Shown here one piece after another: positions 7,574-63,020 of a stretch of DNA of 64,000 nt. The position numbers and the translations under genes are program-made. The stretch spans positions 98,637 to 162,636 of the forward strand of contig JAKPTX010000089.1 of assembly GCA_029570835.1 (NCBI GenBank). The letters are read 5' to 3'. Source of the stretch: Bacteroidota bacterium. GTDB taxonomy: Bacteria; Bacteroidota; Bacteroidia; Bacteroidales; WCHB1-69. How positions within the stretch are numbered: the first letter of the stretch is position 1; every line of letters starts with the position of its first letter. The notes below the pieces were generated by a model. That model ran no database searches and was not told where the DNA came from. It was given only the letters and a program-made list of their open reading frames with translations.

Positions 7574-7600
7574 ATTCTGCCTTTAAGAGAATGTGTAAAA

Positions 7601-7649
7601 ATTACGAATTACGAATTACGATTTTACAAGGTAGAAGGTAGAAGGTAGA
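7601..7649. repeat. Heptamer arrays ATTACGA and AGGTAGA
   Basis: ATTACGA repeats almost three times (7601-7620), and AGGTAGA three times (7629-7649). Both have an exact 7-base period although their sequences differ. Confidence 0.85.
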
Positions 7650-7779
7650 ATGATTTCGGATTTTGGAAAAATCGATGTGTATAAATTCCCCTCCTTGGAG
7701 GGGTGCCCGAAGGGCGGGGTGGTTAATTTTAATTGAATTATTTGCTGTTTTATATCATAATACCCTGTAAATCAAATAC

Positions 7780-7815
7780 ATCAATAAGGTAAGTCAGATA
7801 TTTGACCATTTTCAA
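7780..7815 (+). repeat. Core-B repeat, copy 1
   Basis: 36 bases starting ATCAATAAGG and ending TTTGACCATTTTCAA match 62914-62949 at 31 positions by eye. In both places the core is followed by a TTTTCAA heptamer array and then by an ACTTTCGCC array. Confidence 0.7.
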
Positions 7816-7886
7816 CTCTCAATTTTCAATTATAATAAAAACTTTCGCCTTCCGTCTTCCGCCTTTTTTTCATTCCGCCTTCAGCC
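7809..7886. repeat. Heptamer arrays TTTTCAA and TTCCGCC
   Basis: TTTTCAA, CTCTCAA, TTTTCAA (7809-7829), then TTTCGCC, TTCCGTC, TTCCGCC, seven T (7843-7870), then TTCCGCC, TTCAGCC (7873-7886). Every unit is seven bases long. Confidence 0.85.
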
Positions 7887-7974
7887 TTTTAAATAACCCC
7901 GTAGGGGTGGCATGATTGTAGTAAAATGTTGACCCCAAGAGCCATAAGAACCCCGTAGGGGTGACATGATTGTA

Positions 7975-7995
7975 AAATTAGAAATTAGAAATCAG
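7975..7995. repeat. Heptamer array AAATTAG
   Basis: AAATTAG, AAATTAG, AAATCAG in direct succession, 7-base period. Confidence 0.75.
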
Positions 7996-8057
7996 AATTC
8001 AATTTTAGAGTGGTAGTCCGATTCATAATTGCCCAGGATTTTCCAAAAAGCAGTAAA

Positions 8058-8120
8058 ATTCCAGAGTGGGGAAATAAATTGACAAAGGAGGTACAACTAT
8101 GCTGCCCCCCTTTTATTTAA
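8058..8120 (-). repeat. G6CAG repeat family, copy 2
   Basis: Inverted relative to copy 1: starts ATTCCAGAGTGGGG on the plus strand and ends CTGCCCCCCTTTTATTTAA. It keeps both family ends; the middle differs. Read on the plus strand, GGGG ... CCCCCC followed by TTTTAT could act as a weak terminator. Confidence 0.7.
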
Positions 8121-8126
8121 ATTCCC

Positions 8127-8198
8127 AAATAAGAAATAAGAAGTAAGAAATCTATTATTGGAATTAAATGCCTGATAATCAAATAATTCTAAATTCTA
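8127..8198. repeat. Heptamer arrays flanking a core-A copy
   Basis: AAATAAG, AAATAAG, AAGTAAG (8127-8147) are followed by core A in minus orientation (8148-8198), whose end overlaps AATTCTA, AATTCTA (8185-8198). The core contains TGCCTGATAATCAA and matches the copy at 61651-61699, also set between heptamer arrays. Confidence 0.65.
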
Positions 8199-8265
8199 AT
8201 TTCAAACTTACAATTATGTTACTCCTACGGGGTTGTTGTAAAGATGGAATAAATCCGATTTTAAA

Positions 8266-8294
8266 TCGGGGTGCGACTCAAAGTCGCGCCCCGA
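8266..8294. repeat. GC-rich inverted repeat (REP-like)
   Basis: TCGGGGTGCGACT pairs with AAGTCGCGCCCCGA around a short loop, with one or two mismatches. Another small inverted repeat, CCGATTTTAAATCGG, precedes it. Similar GC-rich palindromes recur elsewhere in this window. Confidence 0.6.
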
Positions 8295-8301
8295 GTATCC
8301 T

Positions 8302-8363
8302 GTAATTCGTAATTCATTCCGCCTTCCGCCTTCCGCCTTTTTTTGATCCCGAAATCCGAAATC
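8302..8363. repeat. Heptamer arrays GTAATTC, TTCCGCC and CGAAATC
   Basis: GTAATTC twice (8302-8315), TTCCGCC three times plus a T run (8317-8345), CGAAATC twice (8350-8363). The last array ends just before the 3' end of murG. Confidence 0.85.
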
Positions 8364-18804: not shown

Positions 18805-19038
18805 ATGTCAGAAATTATTGAAAGAGTACAAGGAATTATTGCTGAAAAATTAAGTGTTAATCCCGCTGATGTAACTCCAGAGAAAAGTTTTACAAACGAT
18901 TTAGGAGCCGACTCATTGGATACTGTTGAGCTCATTATGGAATTTGAAAAAGAATTTGGAATTTCTATTCCGGATGATGAAGCTGAAAAAATAGCAACAG
19001 TTGGGGACGCAATTTCCTACATTGAAAAAAACGTTTAA
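18805..19038 (+). CDS. acpP: Acyl carrier protein
   Basis: A 77-residue acidic acyl carrier protein that carries fatty-acid intermediates on 4'-phosphopantetheine. The attachment Ser is in [16 protein letters not shown] (about residue 37). Length and sequence are typical of Bacteroidota. In this phylum acpP is usually followed by fabF and rnc. Here two hairpins and an unrelated island follow, fabF is absent from the window and rnc lies 5 kb downstream. Confidence 0.97.
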
Positions 19039-19076
19039 TAAACGAAATTTCAATCTGATTGCTTCTTAGAAGCATA

Positions 19077-19141
19077 AAGTGCCTTTGCACTTAGAACTTG
19101 ATTCGTTTTCTATTACAGGGGACGGGTCAAGTTCTTCTTTT
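19077..19141 (+). terminator. Double hairpin with T-rich tail after acpP
   Basis: AAGTGC-CTTT-GCACTT (19077-19092) is followed by AGAACTTGA (19093-19101) pairing with TCAAGTTCT (19127-19135), then TCTTTT. The second hairpin has a 25-base loop. Together they look like a Rho-independent terminator that isolates acpP from the island. Confidence 0.6.
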
Positions 19142-19151
19142 AATTGAAAAT

Positions 19152-19309
19152 ATTGCTTATTTAAGTAATAAAATTAATTATTGCCTATATTGTTTATAAT
19201 TAAAATATTAGTTATTTAGCTTATAATTAAAAATATTACTTATTTAAGTAATAATTCTAATTATTACCTATTTAAGTAATAACTTAAATTATTGCCTATT
19301 TAAGAAATG
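19152..19309. promoter_or_regulatory. Six palindromic units at 28-bp period (operator or iteron array)
   Basis: Six copies of a 20-bp motif close to ATTACTTATTTAAGTAATAA begin at 19152, 19180, 19207, 19235, 19263 and 19291, spaced 28, 27, 28, 28 and 28 bases. The best unit contains the perfect palindrome TTACTTA-TT-TAAGTAA. Gaps are about 8 bases and AT-rich. The last, shortened unit ends 5 bases before the -7 element of the SatD-like gene, so a bound protein would block that promoter. The HTH protein encoded just downstream is the natural candidate; an iteron-like role is the alternative. Confidence 0.75.
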
Positions 19310-19314
19310 TTTTG

Positions 19315-19322
19315 TACATTTG
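19315..19322 (+). promoter_or_regulatory. -7 promoter element (TACATTTG) of the satD-like operon
   Basis: TACATTTG followed by C, directly after the last unit of the 28-bp array and 21 bases before the ATG at 19344. Confidence 0.65.
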
Positions 19323-19343
19323 CATTTCATAAAAATACTTATC

Positions 19344-19988
19344 ATGATAGCGGTGATTTCGGGTGATATTATAGGCTCAAGAAAGCTTGAAAATCAAGGA
19401 ATATGGTTGGATCCATTACAAGACCTGTTGAATGCGTGGGGCGAAAGTCCTAAAGATTGGAAGTTGGAAAGAGGAGATTTTTTTCAAGTAGAAGTTCCAG
19501 AGATTGAAGAAGCATTAAAAAAAGCATTGCAAATAAAGGCACTGATAAAAAAAATAAAACCACTTGACAAACAGAAAAAAGCAAACTCAATAGATGTTCG
19601 TCTGGCTATCGGTATCGGAGATAAAACATATTCGGGAGATACTATATCTATAAGCAATGGTTCTGCTTTTGTAAATTCGGGCGAAAAGTTAGATATATTG
19701 AAAAAAGAAAATATAACATTGGGTATCAAAACATCTAATTCTGAATTTGATGAAGAGATAAATCTCTACTTAGAATTATTAAGTCTATTTGCAGACAAAT
19801 GGTCTGTCTCGTCGGCAGAATTGATAGAAGTTGTTCTTAATAAACCAAGTAAAACACAAGCTGAAATTGGGAAAATATTGGGTATTAAGCAAAGTGGGGT
19901 AAGTAGGAGATGGAAAAGAGCCAATATGGACGAAGTGTTGGAAGTAGAGAAAATGTATCGTAAAAAAATTAAAAACCTATTACTATGA
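19344..19988 (+). CDS. SatD family protein with C-terminal helix-turn-helix
   Basis: A 214-residue protein starting at 19344 (MIAVISGDIIGSRK), a start that respects the promoter at 19315. The N-terminal region matches the SatD family as I know it: SGDIIGSR (Asp8), ERGDFFQVE (Asp45), DVRLAIGIGDKTYSGD (about 84-99) and NGSAFVNSGEKLD (about 105-117). The order of two isolated Asp motifs, an R-x-x-IGIG strand and a G-x-x-x-VN-x-x-E-x-L motif recalls the palm domain of class III nucleotide cyclases; I present that as a resemblance, not an assignment. Residues 171-192 (TQAEIGKILGIKQSGVSRRW) are a clear HTH. It is translationally coupled (ATGA overlap) to the DUF3307 membrane gene and likely regulates itself through the array upstream. 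Confidence 0.75.
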   Translation: MIAVISGDIIGSRKLENQGIWLDPLQDLLNAWGESPKDWKLERGDFFQVEVPEIEEALKKALQIKALIKKIKPLDKQKKANSIDVRLAIGIGDKTYSGDTISISNGSAFVNSGEKLDILKKENITLGIKTSNSEFDEEINLYLELLSLFADKWSVSSAELIEVVLNKPSKTQAEIGKILGIKQSGVSRRWKRANMDEVLEVEKMYRKKIKNLLL

Positions 19989-20692
19989 TAATACTCGTTA
20001 AACTTCTATTAGCTCATCTTATCGGAGATTTTATACTGCAACCCCAATCCTGGGTAAATGAAAAAGAGAAGTTGAAATATCGGTCACCCAAACTTTATAT
20101 ACACGCACTTCTGCATGGACTTTTGGTGTTGCTTCTGTTATGGGATTTGAAATATTGGTTTTTAGCAATGTTAGTTTCGACATTGCACTATGTTATTGAC
20201 GTGGTGAAACTTAATTGTCAAAAAAAGGAGAATAAATCTACCTGGTTTTTTATAGACCAGACTTTGCATCTTGTCACGATTTTACTGTTATGGGGACTGT
20301 TTTGTAAGCCCGAATTAGAGTTTACTTTCTGGTGCACAAACTCTGACTTTTGGATTTATTTAGCCGCAATAATTTTAATAACCGGTGTATCTTCGGTTGT
20401 TGTGCGGGAATTGATGTCGGGATGGACTAAAAACTTAAAGGACAATAAAGATGCTTCGTTAGATAACGCCGGAAAATATATCGGAATACTGGAACGCTTG
20501 TTTGTGTTTTTCTTTGTAATAATTGGAAATTGGGGAAGTATTGGGTTCATTTTGGCAGCAAAATCAATATTCCGCTTTGGAGATTTAAAAGAATCAAAAG
20601 ATAGAAAATTAACAGAATATGTTTTGATAGGTACCTTACTGAGTTTTGGAATTGCCATAGCTGTAGGAATGATAACGTTGAAGTTAACTTAG
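19985..20692 (+). CDS. DUF3307 family multi-pass membrane protein
   Basis: A 235-residue integral membrane protein with about six hydrophobic segments. The family start KLLLAHLIGDFILQPQSWVNEK is clear (His11, Asp15), and further conserved polar residues sit in or near membrane segments (IHALLHG, LHYVIDVVKL). The ATG overlaps the stop of the SatD-like gene (ATGA), so the two proteins are probably made together. SatD-like and DUF3307 genes are, to my knowledge, often paired, but neither has a settled function. No export signal beyond the first helix. Confidence 0.8.
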   Translation: MIILVKLLLAHLIGDFILQPQSWVNEKEKLKYRSPKLYIHALLHGLLVLLLLWDLKYWFLAMLVSTLHYVIDVVKLNCQKKENKSTWFFIDQTLHLVTILLLWGLFCKPELEFTFWCTNSDFWIYLAAIILITGVSSVVVRELMSGWTKNLKDNKDASLDNAGKYIGILERLFVFFFVIIGNWGSIGFILAAKSIFRFGDLKESKDRKLTEYVLIGTLLSFGIAIAVGMITLKLT

Positions 20693-20713
20693 TAACTATT
20701 TTTACCCTCAAAG

Positions 20714-20723
20714 TTACTTATTT
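20714..20723. promoter_or_regulatory. Possible half-site of the 28-bp array motif
   Basis: TTACTTATTT repeats the left half of the array motif exactly, 21 bases upstream of the promoter element of the DUF4062 gene. A 10-base AT-rich match can occur by chance. Confidence 0.3.
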
Positions 20724-20744
20724 TTTTATCCGGAATAAAACTGT

Positions 20745-20752
20745 TATCTTTG
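20745..20752 (+). promoter_or_regulatory. -7 promoter element (TATCTTTG)
   Basis: TATCTTTG followed by C, 66 bases before the ATG of the DUF4062 gene. Confidence 0.6.
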
Positions 20753-20818
20753 CAAGCAATAAAGGTTATGAAATAAATTTTACTATAAAATGCTTAGAAA
20801 AAGTATATTGGAGTAGTA

Positions 20819-22657
20819 ATGGGAAAGATAAAAGTATTTATAAGTAGCGTTCAGTCTGAGTTTGCCTTAGAGCGAAAGGCTTTAGCAGAATATATACGTG
20901 CGGATTCGTTACTTGGTAAATTTTTTGACCCTTTCATTTTTGAAGAGCTTCCGGCGGTCGATTTGACCGCTCCGAATCTCTATTTGAAAGAAGTTGGGAG
21001 ATGTAATATTTATTTGGGATTAATTGGGGCTAAGTATGGTTATCGTGATAGTGAAGGAGTATCGCCCACCGAGAGAGAATATAATAAAGCGACACAATTA
21101 CAAAAGACTCGACTCATTTTTCTAACTTACCACGAGCCTGTTCAGCGGGAACAAGAGGTGAATGCTTTTATTAAAAAAATTGAAAAAGAGGTGGTGCGAA
21201 GCAGATTCATAGGGCTATCATCTTTATTGCAAAACGTGTATCACAGTTTGATTCGTTATCTGGAAGAAAACAGATTTATTCAGTTGGGACCTTTCGATGC
21301 ACAGATTAATTCAGATGCAAGTCTAGAAGATATTGATGAAGAAAAAGTGATTTCTTTTGTTCGTTTGGCAAAATCACGCAGGGGATTTCCGCTGGATGAA
21401 GATAGTCCAATATTGAAGATATTACACCATCTTAATCTTTCACAAGATGAGAGGTTAACCAATGCAGCTCTCTTGCTTTTCGGCAAAAATCCACAACGTT
21501 TTTTTCCTACAGCAACTACTAAATGTGCTGTTTTTCATGGATTTACCAAAACAAAACCTATTCCATCTTATAAAATTATAAGTGGCGATATTTTTGAACA
21601 GATTAATCAGGCTGTGGAGTTTGTTATGTCACAACTTGATTTCAGAATAGGTACGCGTTCACAATCAAATATTGCGCCCGGCAGCTACGAAATTCCCAGA
21701 GAGGTGGTTACTGAGGGTATTGTGAACGCTATTGTTCACAGAAACTATGCCAATAACGCCAGTGTTGAAGTTATTTTGTACAAGGATAGATTGGAAATTT
21801 CCAATCCGGGTTCTTTGCCTTTGGGTTGGACAACCGAGCGACTAAAACAACTGCATAATTCTGTGCCGCACAATCCGTTTATTGCTCATCCTATGTATCT
21901 GGCGGGATATATTGAACAACTGGGTACCGGTACTGAAGAGATGGTGCAAAGAATGAAAGATCATGGACTTCCCGAACCTAAATTTATTCAAGAGTTGGAT
22001 TTCAGAACGATTATTTATCGTTATACTCCGCAAGCTACCCCCCAACTTACCGAACAACCCACCGAACAAGTTACCGTGCAACCTACCGTGCAACCTACCA
22101 TGCAACCTACCATGCAAGATATAAATTCATTAACTACCGCTGTTAAAAATTTAATCAAGGTATTGGAAGGAGCAATGTCAAGAGAAGAGTTGCAGGAGAT
22201 TTTAGAATTAAAAAACAGAGACTATTTCAGGATTAATTATATTAATACTGCTCTAGATGGCGGGTGGATTGAAATGACGGAAGTTGAGTCCAATCATCCT
22301 AACCAAAAATATCGTTTAACACAAAAAGGATTAGAAGCTAGGAAACAGTTTATCCCGCAACCCACCGAACAACCCACCGAACAACCTACCGAACAAGTCA
22401 CCGAACAACTTACCGAACAAGTTTACCGTTTGATTTTAACTATTGAGGGTGAAATGACTCGAGATGAACTCATGGATAAATTAAATTTAAGACATAGACC
22501 TACTTTTGTTTTGAATTACTCAAATCCGGCATTACACGGCGGGTGGATTGAAATGACGGAAGTTGAGGTCAATCATCCTAACCAAAAATACCGTTTGACT
22601 GAAAAGGGATTAAAAGTAAAAGAAGAGTGGAAAAAAATTAAACCTGATTATAAATAA
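20819..22657 (+). CDS. DUF4062 / HATPase-like / twin winged-helix protein
   Basis: A 612-residue multidomain protein. Residues 1-90 (KVFISSVQSEFALERKALAEYI, then RCNIYLGLIGAKYGYRD) match DUF4062, a TIR-like Rossmann domain found in signalling and conflict proteins. The middle (about 170-400) matches the RecG-related, AlbA/HATPase_c_4-type transcriptional-regulator-like region: SPILKILHHLNL, LTNAALLLFGKNPQRFFP, TEGIVNAIVHRNYANN, LEISNPGSLP and GYIEQLGTGTEEM. Two copies of a module follow, each a low-complexity PTEQPTEQ/PTVQPTMQ linker plus a winged helix ending GGWIEMTEVE-x-NHPNQKYRLT. The arrangement suggests an effector or sensor domain joined to a nucleotide-binding and DNA-binding regulator. 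Defence is a possibility, not shown. Confidence 0.8.
   Translation: MGKIKVFISSVQSEFALERKALAEYIRADSLLGKFFDPFIFEELPAVDLTAPNLYLKEVGRCNIYLGLIGAKYGYRDSEGVSPTEREYNKATQLQKTRLIFLTYHEPVQREQEVNAFIKKIEKEVVRSRFIGLSSLLQNVYHSLIRYLEENRFIQLGPFDAQINSDASLEDIDEEKVISFVRLAKSRRGFPLDEDSPILKILHHLNLSQDERLTNAALLLFGKNPQRFFPTATTKCAVFHGFTKTKPIPSYKIISGDIFEQINQAVEFVMSQLDFRIGTRSQSNIAPGSYEIPREVVTEGIVNAIVHRNYANNASVEVILYKDRLEISNPGSLPLGWTTERLKQLHNSVPHNPFIAHPMYLAGYIEQLGTGTEEMVQRMKDHGLPEPKFIQELDFRTIIYRYTPQATPQLTEQPTEQVTVQPTVQPTMQPTMQDINSLTTAVKNLIKVLEGAMSREELQEILELKNRDYFRINYINTALDGGWIEMTEVESNHPNQKYRLTQKGLEARKQFIPQPTEQPTEQPTEQVTEQLTEQVYRLILTIEGEMTRDELMDKLNLRHRPTFVLNYSNPALHGGWIEMTEVEVNHPNQKYRLTEKGLKVKEEWKKIKPDYK
22047..22117 (+). 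repeat. 12-bp tandem repeats encoding PTEQ/PTVQ linker (first copy)
   Basis: Units close to CAACCTACCGTG / CAACCCACCGAA repeat in frame. The second linker at 22357-22422 has the same units. Confidence 0.85.
22259..22318 (+). repeat. Duplicated winged-helix segment, copy 1
   Basis: About 60 bases starting GGCGGGTGGATTGAAATGAC recur almost unchanged at 22538-22597, roughly 279 bases downstream, so linker plus winged helix was duplicated recently. Confidence 0.85.
22357..22422 (+). repeat. 12-bp tandem repeats encoding PTEQ linker (second copy)
   Basis: In-frame repeats of CAACCCACCGAA and variants; same unit as the first linker, so copy number here may vary between strains. Confidence 0.85.
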
Positions 22658-22662
22658 AAATC

Positions 22663-23907
22663 ATGATAAAAAAACTAATTCTCATCTTATTTGTCACGAT
22701 TTCAGCTGTTGCATTTGGGCAAACTAATTCGGAAACTTTCAATAAATTTATTTTGGACATTACCCAAGTTGAAAGTCAATATAGGGAGTATTACAACAAT
22801 AAAGAGTATAAACAAACCGCAATATTATTGCAAGAAATGTTGGGTTTAGTTGAAAACTTAAAACTAACCCCGGATGAAGTAACTGATTATCATATTTTTA
22901 TTCAGAATATTAAAGCAGGAATACACTACAATTTAACGTGTACTTACGCTTTATTAAATCAAAAGAAACAAGCTATTGCTGCATTTGAACAAGCAATAGA
23001 ATCAGGATATTCCGAATACAGACATGCTAAAACCGATACAGATTTGGATAATATCCGTGAAGAGAAGAAATTCATTGATCTTTTAGATCGGATAAAACAG
23101 TTTGATAAGTTGGTTATTCTTCAAAATGCACCGGGTTATCAAGAAGAAAAAAGAGACTCTTTACCACAATTTGTATATCAATCTCCCGAAGATAATAATC
23201 TGCAACAGGTCAGGAGCTTTTTTAACTTAGATTCTGTAGCCGGTAATCGAGATGAATTAACTCAAATTGTTAATATTTTAAAGTTTGCTCATGATGCGAT
23301 TAAGCACAATGGAAGCAATTATGCGCTGTGTGAGTTCGATGCAATTGATATTTACAATTATAACAAATCAACCAATAAAGGGGTGAATTGTAGACACTTA
23401 GCAATTGCTCTCAATGAAATGTATCTCGCTATGGGGATTCCTTCGCGGTATGTTACTTGTTTGCCGAAAGATGAAAATGATCCGGATTGTCATGTGATTA
23501 ACAGCGTATATTCCAGTCAGTTACAAAAATGGTTGTGGATTGATCCTACTTTTAATGCTTATGTAAAAGATGAAAATGGGAACTTTTTGAGTATAGCTGA
23601 AGTAAGAGAACGTTTAATTTCCGGAAAACCACTTGTGTTGAATGAAGATGCAAATTGGAATAATGAAACACCACAAACCAAAGAGTATTATTTAGAAACC
23701 TATATGGCTAAAAATTTGTATTGGTTTGAATGTGTTGCTTATAGCAGATTTAATCCGGAAAGTCGTTATAGAAAAGTGGATAACCAATATATAGGCTTGA
23801 AACCGGTTGGAGTAGGAGATAATGCAGTAGGAAGTGCTGTTATTATAACTCACGATCCTGAGTATTTTTGGCAGGCTCCACCCAGGAGGGAGAATAAAGA
23901 GGAATAA
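22663..23907 (+). CDS. Secreted transglutaminase-like (papain-fold) protein
   Basis: A 414-residue exported protein: signal peptide 1-20 (ending AFGQ), a TPR-like helical region (about 25-150) and a transglutaminase-core domain. The catalytic triad is readable as Cys243 (GVNCRHLAIALNEMYLAMGIPSR), His277 (DCHVINSVY) and Asp294 (WIDPTFNAY). Bacterial members are usually peptidases or amide hydrolases, not crosslinking enzymes. The start is five bases after the stop of the DUF4062 gene, so they probably share a transcript. A strong hairpin terminator follows (23934-23984). The substrate cannot be told from sequence. Confidence 0.85.
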   Translation: MIKKLILILFVTISAVAFGQTNSETFNKFILDITQVESQYREYYNNKEYKQTAILLQEMLGLVENLKLTPDEVTDYHIFIQNIKAGIHYNLTCTYALLNQKKQAIAAFEQAIESGYSEYRHAKTDTDLDNIREEKKFIDLLDRIKQFDKLVILQNAPGYQEEKRDSLPQFVYQSPEDNNLQQVRSFFNLDSVAGNRDELTQIVNILKFAHDAIKHNGSNYALCEFDAIDIYNYNKSTNKGVNCRHLAIALNEMYLAMGIPSRYVTCLPKDENDPDCHVINSVYSSQLQKWLWIDPTFNAYVKDENGNFLSIAEVRERLISGKPLVLNEDANWNNETPQTKEYYLETYMAKNLYWFECVAYSRFNPESRYRKVDNQYIGLKPVGVGDNAVGSAVIITHDPEYFWQAPPRRENKEE

Positions 23908-23933
23908 AGTATAAAGCAATAAAATATCTAAGC

Positions 23934-23984
23934 GGGGGTTGACAGAACCTTAGTGTGATGGATGTCCTGCCCCCCTTTTTTTTT
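23934..23984 (+). terminator. Rho-independent terminator
   Basis: GGGGG (23934-23938) and GACA pair with TGTC and CCCCC, followed by nine T. It ends the island transcript. The right part, CTGCCCCCC plus T run and ATTTCATAAA, is also copy 5 of the G6CAG repeat in minus orientation. Confidence 0.75.
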
Positions 23985-23992
23985 ATTTCATA
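23934..23992 (-). repeat. G6CAG repeat family, copy 5
   Basis: On the minus strand it begins TATGAAATAAAAAAAAAG, then GGGGGGCAGGACAT, matching the left half of copy 1. The right end is CAACCCCCGC instead of CCCCACTCTGG. Confidence 0.6.
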
Positions 23993-24012
23993 AATAATTA
24001 AAAGAAAATTGT

Positions 24013-24020
24013 TACTTTTG
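24013..24020 (+). promoter_or_regulatory. -7 promoter element (TACTTTTG) of rnc
   Basis: TACTTTTG followed by C, 31 bases before the proposed TTG start. It shows that rnc has its own promoter here. Confidence 0.55.
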
Positions 24021-24051
24021 CAAAGTCTAACTTTAGGCAGAGTCTTGTATT

Positions 24052-59074: not shown

Positions 59075-59139
59075 TTCCGCCTTCCGCCTCCCGCCTCCCG
59101 CCTTTTTTTCCTTTCGACTTTCGCCTTTCGCCTTTTTTT
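59075..59139. repeat. Heptamer arrays TTCCGCC/TCCCGCC and TTTCGCC
   Basis: TTCCGCC twice, TCCCGCC twice and seven T (59075-59109); then TTTCGAC, TTTCGCC, TTTCGCC and seven T (59112-59139). The promoter of elbB starts two bases later. Confidence 0.85.
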
Positions 59140-61573: not shown

Positions 61574-61590
61574 GATTTTGGACGATATCA

Positions 61591-61651
61591 ATTACGAATT
61601 ACGAATTACGAATTACGTTTCCTAATTTAGAATTTAGAATTTAGATTTTAG
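61591..61651. repeat. Heptamer arrays ATTACGA and AATTTAG
   Basis: ATTACGA almost four times (61591-61617), AATTTAG three times plus ATTTTAG (61624-61651). The first array repeats the sequence seen at 7601. Confidence 0.85.
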
Positions 61652-61699
61652 AATTAATTGAGTATCAGGCATTTACATTTTTTTAATAGATCTATTTCA
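61651..61699 (+). repeat. Core-A repeat, best copy
   Basis: Contains GAATTAATTGAGTATCAGGC, then ATTTA and, later, AATAGAT and TATTTC. Matches the minus strand of 8148-8198 and, weaker, of 6691-6733. Confidence 0.6.
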
Positions 61700-61712
61700 T
61701 ATTTCTAATTTA

Positions 61713-61757
61713 TACTTCATACTTCAAAAACTTTCGCCTTCCGCCTTCCGCCTTTTT
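61713..61757. repeat. Heptamer arrays TACTTCA and TTTCGCC/TTCCGCC
   Basis: TACTTCA twice (61713-61726), then TTTCGCC, TTCCGCC, TTCCGCC (61732-61752) and a T run leading into the promoter at 61762. Confidence 0.85.
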
Positions 61758-62913: not shown

Positions 62914-63011
62914 ATCAATGAGATACGCAAGATATTTGACCATTTTCAATTTTCAATTCTCAATTTTCAATTTATAAAAAAACTTTCGCCTTTCGCCTTC
63001 CGCCTTTCGCC
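62914..63011. repeat. Core-B repeat copy 2 with TTTTCAA and TTTCGCC heptamers
   Basis: ATCAATGAGATACG, AGATATTTGACCATTTTCAA, then TTTTCAA, TTCTCAA, TTTTCAA, an A-rich spacer and TTTCGCC, TTTCGCC, TTCCGCC, TTTCGCC. The same order of blocks occurs at 7780-7870. Confidence 0.8.
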
Positions 63012-63020
63012 TTTTTTATT

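Follow-up and report, generated by a model that had tools for sequence, protein, structure and literature searches.

A palindrome array at 28-bp steps upstream of satD in Bacteroidota, a probable autoregulatory operator of the satD–DUF3307 operon

Tandem autoregulatory operators are known in general, those of phage lambda (OR1–OR3) being an example. Two other groups of proteins bear comparison with the system described here: the C proteins of restriction–modification systems, small autoregulators whose operator lies 5' of their own gene, and the partition proteins ParR and TubR, which coat arrays of repeats at plasmid centromeres. The locus under study lies in a stretch of 64,000 nucleotides of Bacteroidota DNA (hereafter the window), where a row of palindromes precedes a gene encoding a SatD-like protein with a C-terminal helix-turn-helix (HTH). 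We consider it highly probable that this array is the operator of an autoregulated satD–DUF3307 operon, bound by SatD, which would repress the operon in a nucleotide-modulated manner. This reading was built on computed properties, namely the array itself, the conservation of its step, its covariation with the recognition helix, its overlap with the promoter, the predicted fold of SatD and the single genomic target.

The window array consists of six gapped palindromes of about 20 bp, of the form TATTAC-N8-GTAATA, which span positions 19151–19309. The unit, TATTRCYTATTTAAGTAATA, starts at 19151, 19179, 19206, 19234, 19262 and 19290, i.e. at successive spacings of 28, 27, 28, 28 and 28 bp (the sole 27-bp step leads from unit 2 to unit 3), with gaps of 8 bp separating the units, or 7 bp in the case of units 2 and 3. 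A sequence-only reading had reported six palindromes at a 28-bp period, and this is confirmed: Tandem Repeats Finder returned a period of 28 (5.7 copies, score 120), and the palindrome chain with a step of 28 and 1-bp slack scored 21.3, whereas none of 1500 dinucleotide shuffles exceeded 12.3. The coordinates given there (19152 to 19291) are also correct, the unit chosen beginning one base inside ours. When no slack was allowed and all steps from 14 to 50 were considered, a four-unit chain scored 15.7, a value equalled in 1 of 1500 shuffles. The best score outside the array, at steps 28 and 29 over the 64-kb window, was 6.4, in agreement with the earlier statement that this is a regular array and not general AT richness.

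The six units, to which no strand is assigned, are not equally well preserved. Units 4 (19234–19253, TATTACTTATTTAAGTAATA) and 5 (19262–19281, TATTACCTATTTAAGTAATA) have perfect arms, and a pattern search of the 2.9-Mb genome found the exact palindrome that they share at these two places only. Unit 1 (19151–19170, TATTGCTTATTTAAGTAATA) matches TATTAC-N8-GTAATA at 11 of 12 arm bases (one mismatch), and units 2 (19179–19198, TATTGCCTATATTGTTTATA), 3 (19206–19225, TATTAGTTATTTAGCTTATA) and 6 (19290–19309, TATTGCCTATTTAAGAAATG) are degenerate (9/12 each), the last site thus being among the weakest. There was no sign of a wider regulon genome-wide: with at most one mismatch allowed, 25 sites were found versus 38 for a reversed control pattern.

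The array runs into the promoter of the HTH gene, as had been proposed. Indeed, the sequence and a promoter scan identify a Bacteroidota-type promoter on the forward strand, with a –33 element (TTG, 19292–19294) located within unit 6 and, at a spacing of 20, a –7 element (TACATTTG, 19315–19322; consensus TAnnTTTG). The satD-like gene follows on the same strand (19344–19988, 214 codons), and its stop codon is overlapped (ATGA) by the gene for a DUF3307 membrane protein (19985–20692, forward strand; Pfam E 2.8e-30). On the other side of the array lies acpP (18805–19038), followed by an inverted repeat (19093–19135, forward strand; arms 19093–19106 and 19122–19135, 86% complementary), a possible terminator separating acpP from the array.

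The neighbours of the window satD are acpP, DUF3307, a DUF4062/AlbA-type gene, a TPR gene and rnc. The interval from acpP to rnc (19039–24051), which holds the satD, DUF3307, DUF4062/AlbA-type and TPR genes, is only about 1.3 kb long in genome G002, where it presumably contains fabF; genome G001 keeps the DUF4062–TPR–rnc order, and neither acpP nor satD was found in the 4 kb upstream. The DUF4062 gene itself carries 12/24-bp tandem repeats encoding Pro-Thr-Glu-Gln linkers (22043–22117 and 22358–22422) and a duplicated Fic-like C-terminal domain, and its G001 homologue differs in the repeat and Fic-like part. Many perfect or near-perfect 7-bp tandem repeats, apparently intergenic, are found elsewhere in the window (7600–8339, 59075–59135, 61590–61754 and 62942–63014), with units such as AATTACG, AAGGTAG, TTCCGCC and CTTTCGC, among others. 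In addition, a decayed copy of satD lies elsewhere in the genome (G000, contig C144:70961–71083; L007, L160), preceded by one operator-like unit, TATTGCGTAATTAGGTAATG, and promoter-like sequence.

The sequence-only reading had suggested a search of related genomes, upstream of satD/DUF3307 pairs, for arrays with the same unit or period. The 125 distinct satD loci provided by genome searches are almost exclusively from Bacteroidota (satD is present in 100 of 395 sampled Bacteroidota genomes, about a quarter), and 124 of them had sufficient upstream sequence. Regions were scored as fixed-step chains, a procedure that replaced the plain palindrome count against shuffles because the latter is weak in AT-rich regions. 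The best palindrome step was 28 or 29 bp in 99 of the 124 upstream regions, as compared to 39 of 992 dinucleotide shuffles (3.9%) and 17 of 244 control stretches from the same loci (7%); 86 of the 124, versus 1 of the 244 controls, scored above the 99% shuffle level. The step is thus common to most loci, but the unit sequence is not: it differs from locus to locus, changing with the HTH. A clear array is missing in about a quarter to a third of satD loci, which counts against the operator reading, as does the weakness of the last site in the window.

Natural arrays range from two to ten sites, the longest being that of Petrimonas (L008), with ten units at exact 28-bp steps when read at the TATTAC phase (the automatic phase had taken a shifted frame, TAA). 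The commonest number is three, compared to six at the window locus. The earlier remark that six sites are more than a simple operator needs is to be qualified: with a family norm of three sites, the device in its basic form is a short operator in tandem, of which the window has an enlarged version. Two further observations concern subsets of loci. The 29-bp arrays are accompanied by a two-residue deletion in the linker preceding the HTH in 29 of 43 cases, versus 2 of 57 for the 28-bp arrays; this is possibly a geometric adjustment, shared ancestry could explain it too, and since the tree holds only about five step changes we keep the link as an observation. In three loci (L004, L038 and L073), a divergent satD relative lies directly 5' of a glycoside-hydrolase-like gene, with neither DUF3307 nor a 28/29-bp array.

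The position of the arrays bears on the sign of the control. Many loci have their last site in the interval between the –33 and –7 elements or on these elements, and at 28 loci the distance from its centre to the start of the –7 box is 6 or 8 bp; many arrays comprise merely three sites and run up to the start codon. Autorepression fits this arrangement. SatD could instead act as an activator, landing upstream of the –33 element and aiding RNA polymerase, activation becoming stronger as sites are added. Sites 1–5 of the window array do lie upstream of –33, and the long window and Petrimonas arrays grow in the upstream direction, so that such sites could also serve activation; however, the last site falls between the –33 and –7 elements or touches the –7 element in at least 28 loci, and the three-site arrays abutting the start codon occupy a position typical of occlusion. 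We therefore regard activation as unlikely, repression by SatD being the preferred reading of the array.

The operon partner is nearly constant: DUF3307 (PF11750) comes next after satD in 119 of the 125 loci. Its AlphaFold2 model is all-helical (pLDDT 94.2), with conserved His and Asp residues, and no similar solved structure was found either by fold (Foldseek) or by sequence. In two loci, L008 and L011, a type I restriction operon surrounds the pair, with hsdS upstream and hsdR downstream; hsdR also lies directly 3' of the pair in L010, L045 and L026, the last of which has hsdS upstream as well. A role of the pair chiefly as a restriction-system controller was considered and rejected, as same-strand type I hsdS or hsdR genes adjoin it in 6 of 125 loci (flanks of 1.5–3 kb), and overall the family shows no general link to restriction systems. 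These associations, together with the resemblance of the neighbouring DUF4062/AlbA-type gene of the window to pAgo-associated PADLOC models, might nevertheless point to an anti-phage defence module for which the array is the off-switch. Yet most loci in the neighbourhood sample lie among other chromosomal genes, PADLOC returned no match for SatD or DUF3307, and no relatives were found in plasmid and phage collections (tblastn) or in viral contigs (small-alignment scan). A defence function is in our judgement quite improbable, and we return to the operator as a device controlling the satD–DUF3307 operon.

The identity of the protein that binds the array is suggested by the sites themselves. When folded about their centres, they read W-TAT-NNN-N8-NNN-ATA-W. 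The outer TAT...ATA is common to the family and appears also in unanchored chains, although in the folded-site analysis the TAT signal stems in part from the anchoring of the phase on TAT. The NNN triplet, by contrast, is constant inside arrays and nearly free between them (1.4–1.7 bits within a locus versus 0.1–0.4 bits across loci). Its variation follows the recognition helix of SatD when the distance between N-terminal domains is taken into account (partial Mantel r 0.235, p 0.0005), but not the N-terminal distance given the recognition helix (–0.075), and the spacer, used as a control, gave 0.012 (not significant). Among about 200 protein columns, those most associated with the triplet are R188, G185 and S184, all inside the predicted helix 183–192 (QSGVSRRWKR in the window protein, codons 19890–19919 on the forward strand; AlphaFold2 model).

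Typical helix and site pairs are VSRR with TTAC, VSGR and VSER with CG, VNQH with AAG, and IHKR with AAC. R188 accompanies all 13 TAC arrays, including those of the window protein and of L015 within a clade otherwise characterized by VSGR and CGT. A tree built from the N-terminal domain alone requires the TAC state to have changed at least three times, and TTAC recurs with R188 on separate branches; independent pairs on well supported branches number only three or four, too few for significance, and the changes are almost all in one direction. Because the triplet covaries with recognition-helix residues, SatD itself most likely binds its own array, in line with the earlier prediction that the HTH protein is the binder. 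That SatD is predicted as the binder from sequence leaves some room for a different, unlinked global transcription factor, but the half-site triplets vary by locus and track the SatD helix, no regulon is seen, and the genome has no exact palindromes outside the array, which makes such a factor very unlikely. An iteron-like role, also raised by the sequence-only reading, or a partition or replication-type site lying by chance 5' of satD is hardly credible: the sites are regular and multi-copy, up to ten in Petrimonas, but the palindromes sit at a chromosomal promoter beside acpP, no rep or par gene was found among the neighbour genes surveyed, and conservation follows the satD promoter, the array being absent where satD closely trails another gene (a same-strand upstream ORF ends within 50 bp of satD in 0 of 91 loci with an array versus 8 of 33 without).

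The SatD protein, taken here as the binder, also carries a domain that may receive a signal. The window protein matches the Pfam SatD profile (PF16264) over nearly its full length (residues 2–195 of 214), with 26.5 bits (E 5.9e-6); as this is below the gathering score of 29, we call it SatD-like, a distant relative. Its AlphaFold2 model (104 homologues, pLDDT 95.5) predicts an alternating alpha/beta domain (about residues 1–130) with the strand order of the cyclase palm, followed by the HTH. The top 50 Foldseek matches to this model in the PDB are GGDEF-containing proteins and guanylyl or adenylyl (nucleotidyl) cyclases (probability 0.91–1.00, E at least 1e-3), and a comparison of the fold with viral proteins contributed nothing beyond phage diguanylate cyclases. 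At the sequence level, a profile matches the class III cyclase Ma1120 from Mycobacterium avium (E 4e-4), aligning D8 and D45 with the aspartates of its TDI and QGD motifs, which we take to be metal ligands. D45 is invariant and D8 at least 90% conserved among 104 sequences. The Ma1120 alignment ends near residue 94 and so does not locate the base-selecting Lys/Asp or the transition-state Asn–Arg; Ma1120 itself is without the usual transition-state Asn (PMC4215837). The N-terminal domain of SatD is thus predicted to fold like class III cyclases and GGDEF domains; it retains the two aspartates at the metal positions and likely holds a metal and nucleotide site.

In the mechanism that we infer, which covers binding, dimerisation, the sign of control, cooperativity and the ligand, one SatD dimer would occupy each palindrome, the C-terminal HTH reading TATNNN in each half and residues 184, 185 and 188 of the recognition helix setting the three variable bases. 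Where the array step is 28 bp, one TATNNN half-site follows another every 14 bp exactly, whether both belong to one palindrome or to adjacent ones, with the direction alternating; three 28-bp steps amount to eight turns of a 10.5-bp helix. Since the half-sites are evenly spaced throughout, neighbouring SatD dimers could touch and fill the row cooperatively, and this geometry would suit a continuous protein chain along the DNA. The sequence-only reading had likewise proposed cooperative binding, which the recurrence of sites at a constant step favours, and had raised filament formation, which is possible. Filling would start at the strong sites in the middle and end at the weak one over the promoter, thereby excluding RNA polymerase, and a full array would leave satD–DUF3307 repressed; with more sites, the threshold would shift or the hold tighten.

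The signal is likely to be a nucleotide held by the cyclase-type domain: the N-terminal domain would sense or turn over this nucleotide, loosening or tightening DNA binding, and the amount of the membrane protein DUF3307 would thereby be coupled to a nucleotide signal. A bolder version, in which SatD is a nucleotide-switched filament coating the DNA on 14-bp half-sites, nucleotide binding or turnover in the cyclase-type domain governs its assembly or release, and array length is a dial for the DUF3307 threshold, is put forward tentatively, as a possibility to which we attach a modest chance.

In open-access full text, each family name turned up once, in passing, and the search found no study of the family, nor any function, operator or fold for it; it covered open-access papers, and earlier work in subscription papers may have been missed. 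Neither the SatD family nor its 28/29-bp operator and recognition-helix code, nor the cyclase-type domain, appears to have been described before. If the predictions from sequence and model hold, a family of undescribed function can be given the role of a DNA-binding autoregulator whose sensor is a cyclase-type domain and whose operator is readable from sequence in most genomes. The natural HTH/operator pairs provide a ready recognition code for testing, the series of 2–10 sites suits the study of cooperative binding, and the system offers a way to approach DUF3307, a membrane protein of which no relative has been solved.

Among described systems, the SatD-like window protein and its partner stand closest to PF16264 and PF11750, by the near full-length match, short of the gathering score for SatD, and by the DUF3307 gene in the operon. 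The predicted fold, D8 and D45 liken the N-terminal domain to Ma1120 and GGDEF proteins, but in SatD it is fused to an HTH. A few satD pairs lie inside type I restriction operons, which recalls the C proteins; SatD is however unrelated to them, and most satD loci have no adjoining restriction genes. As with ParR and TubR, SatD would be expected to coat a regular array, but the satD repeats are palindromes at a chromosomal promoter. The likeness to lambda OR1–OR3 is that several palindromes resembling one another are spaced almost evenly across the promoter of the presumed binder's own gene, three sites being typical. By contrast with the lambda operators, the satD arrays would be read by an unrelated HTH protein with a cyclase-type domain, are spaced by 28/29 bp and reach six or ten sites, and the bases of their half-sites change from species to species along with the recognition helix.
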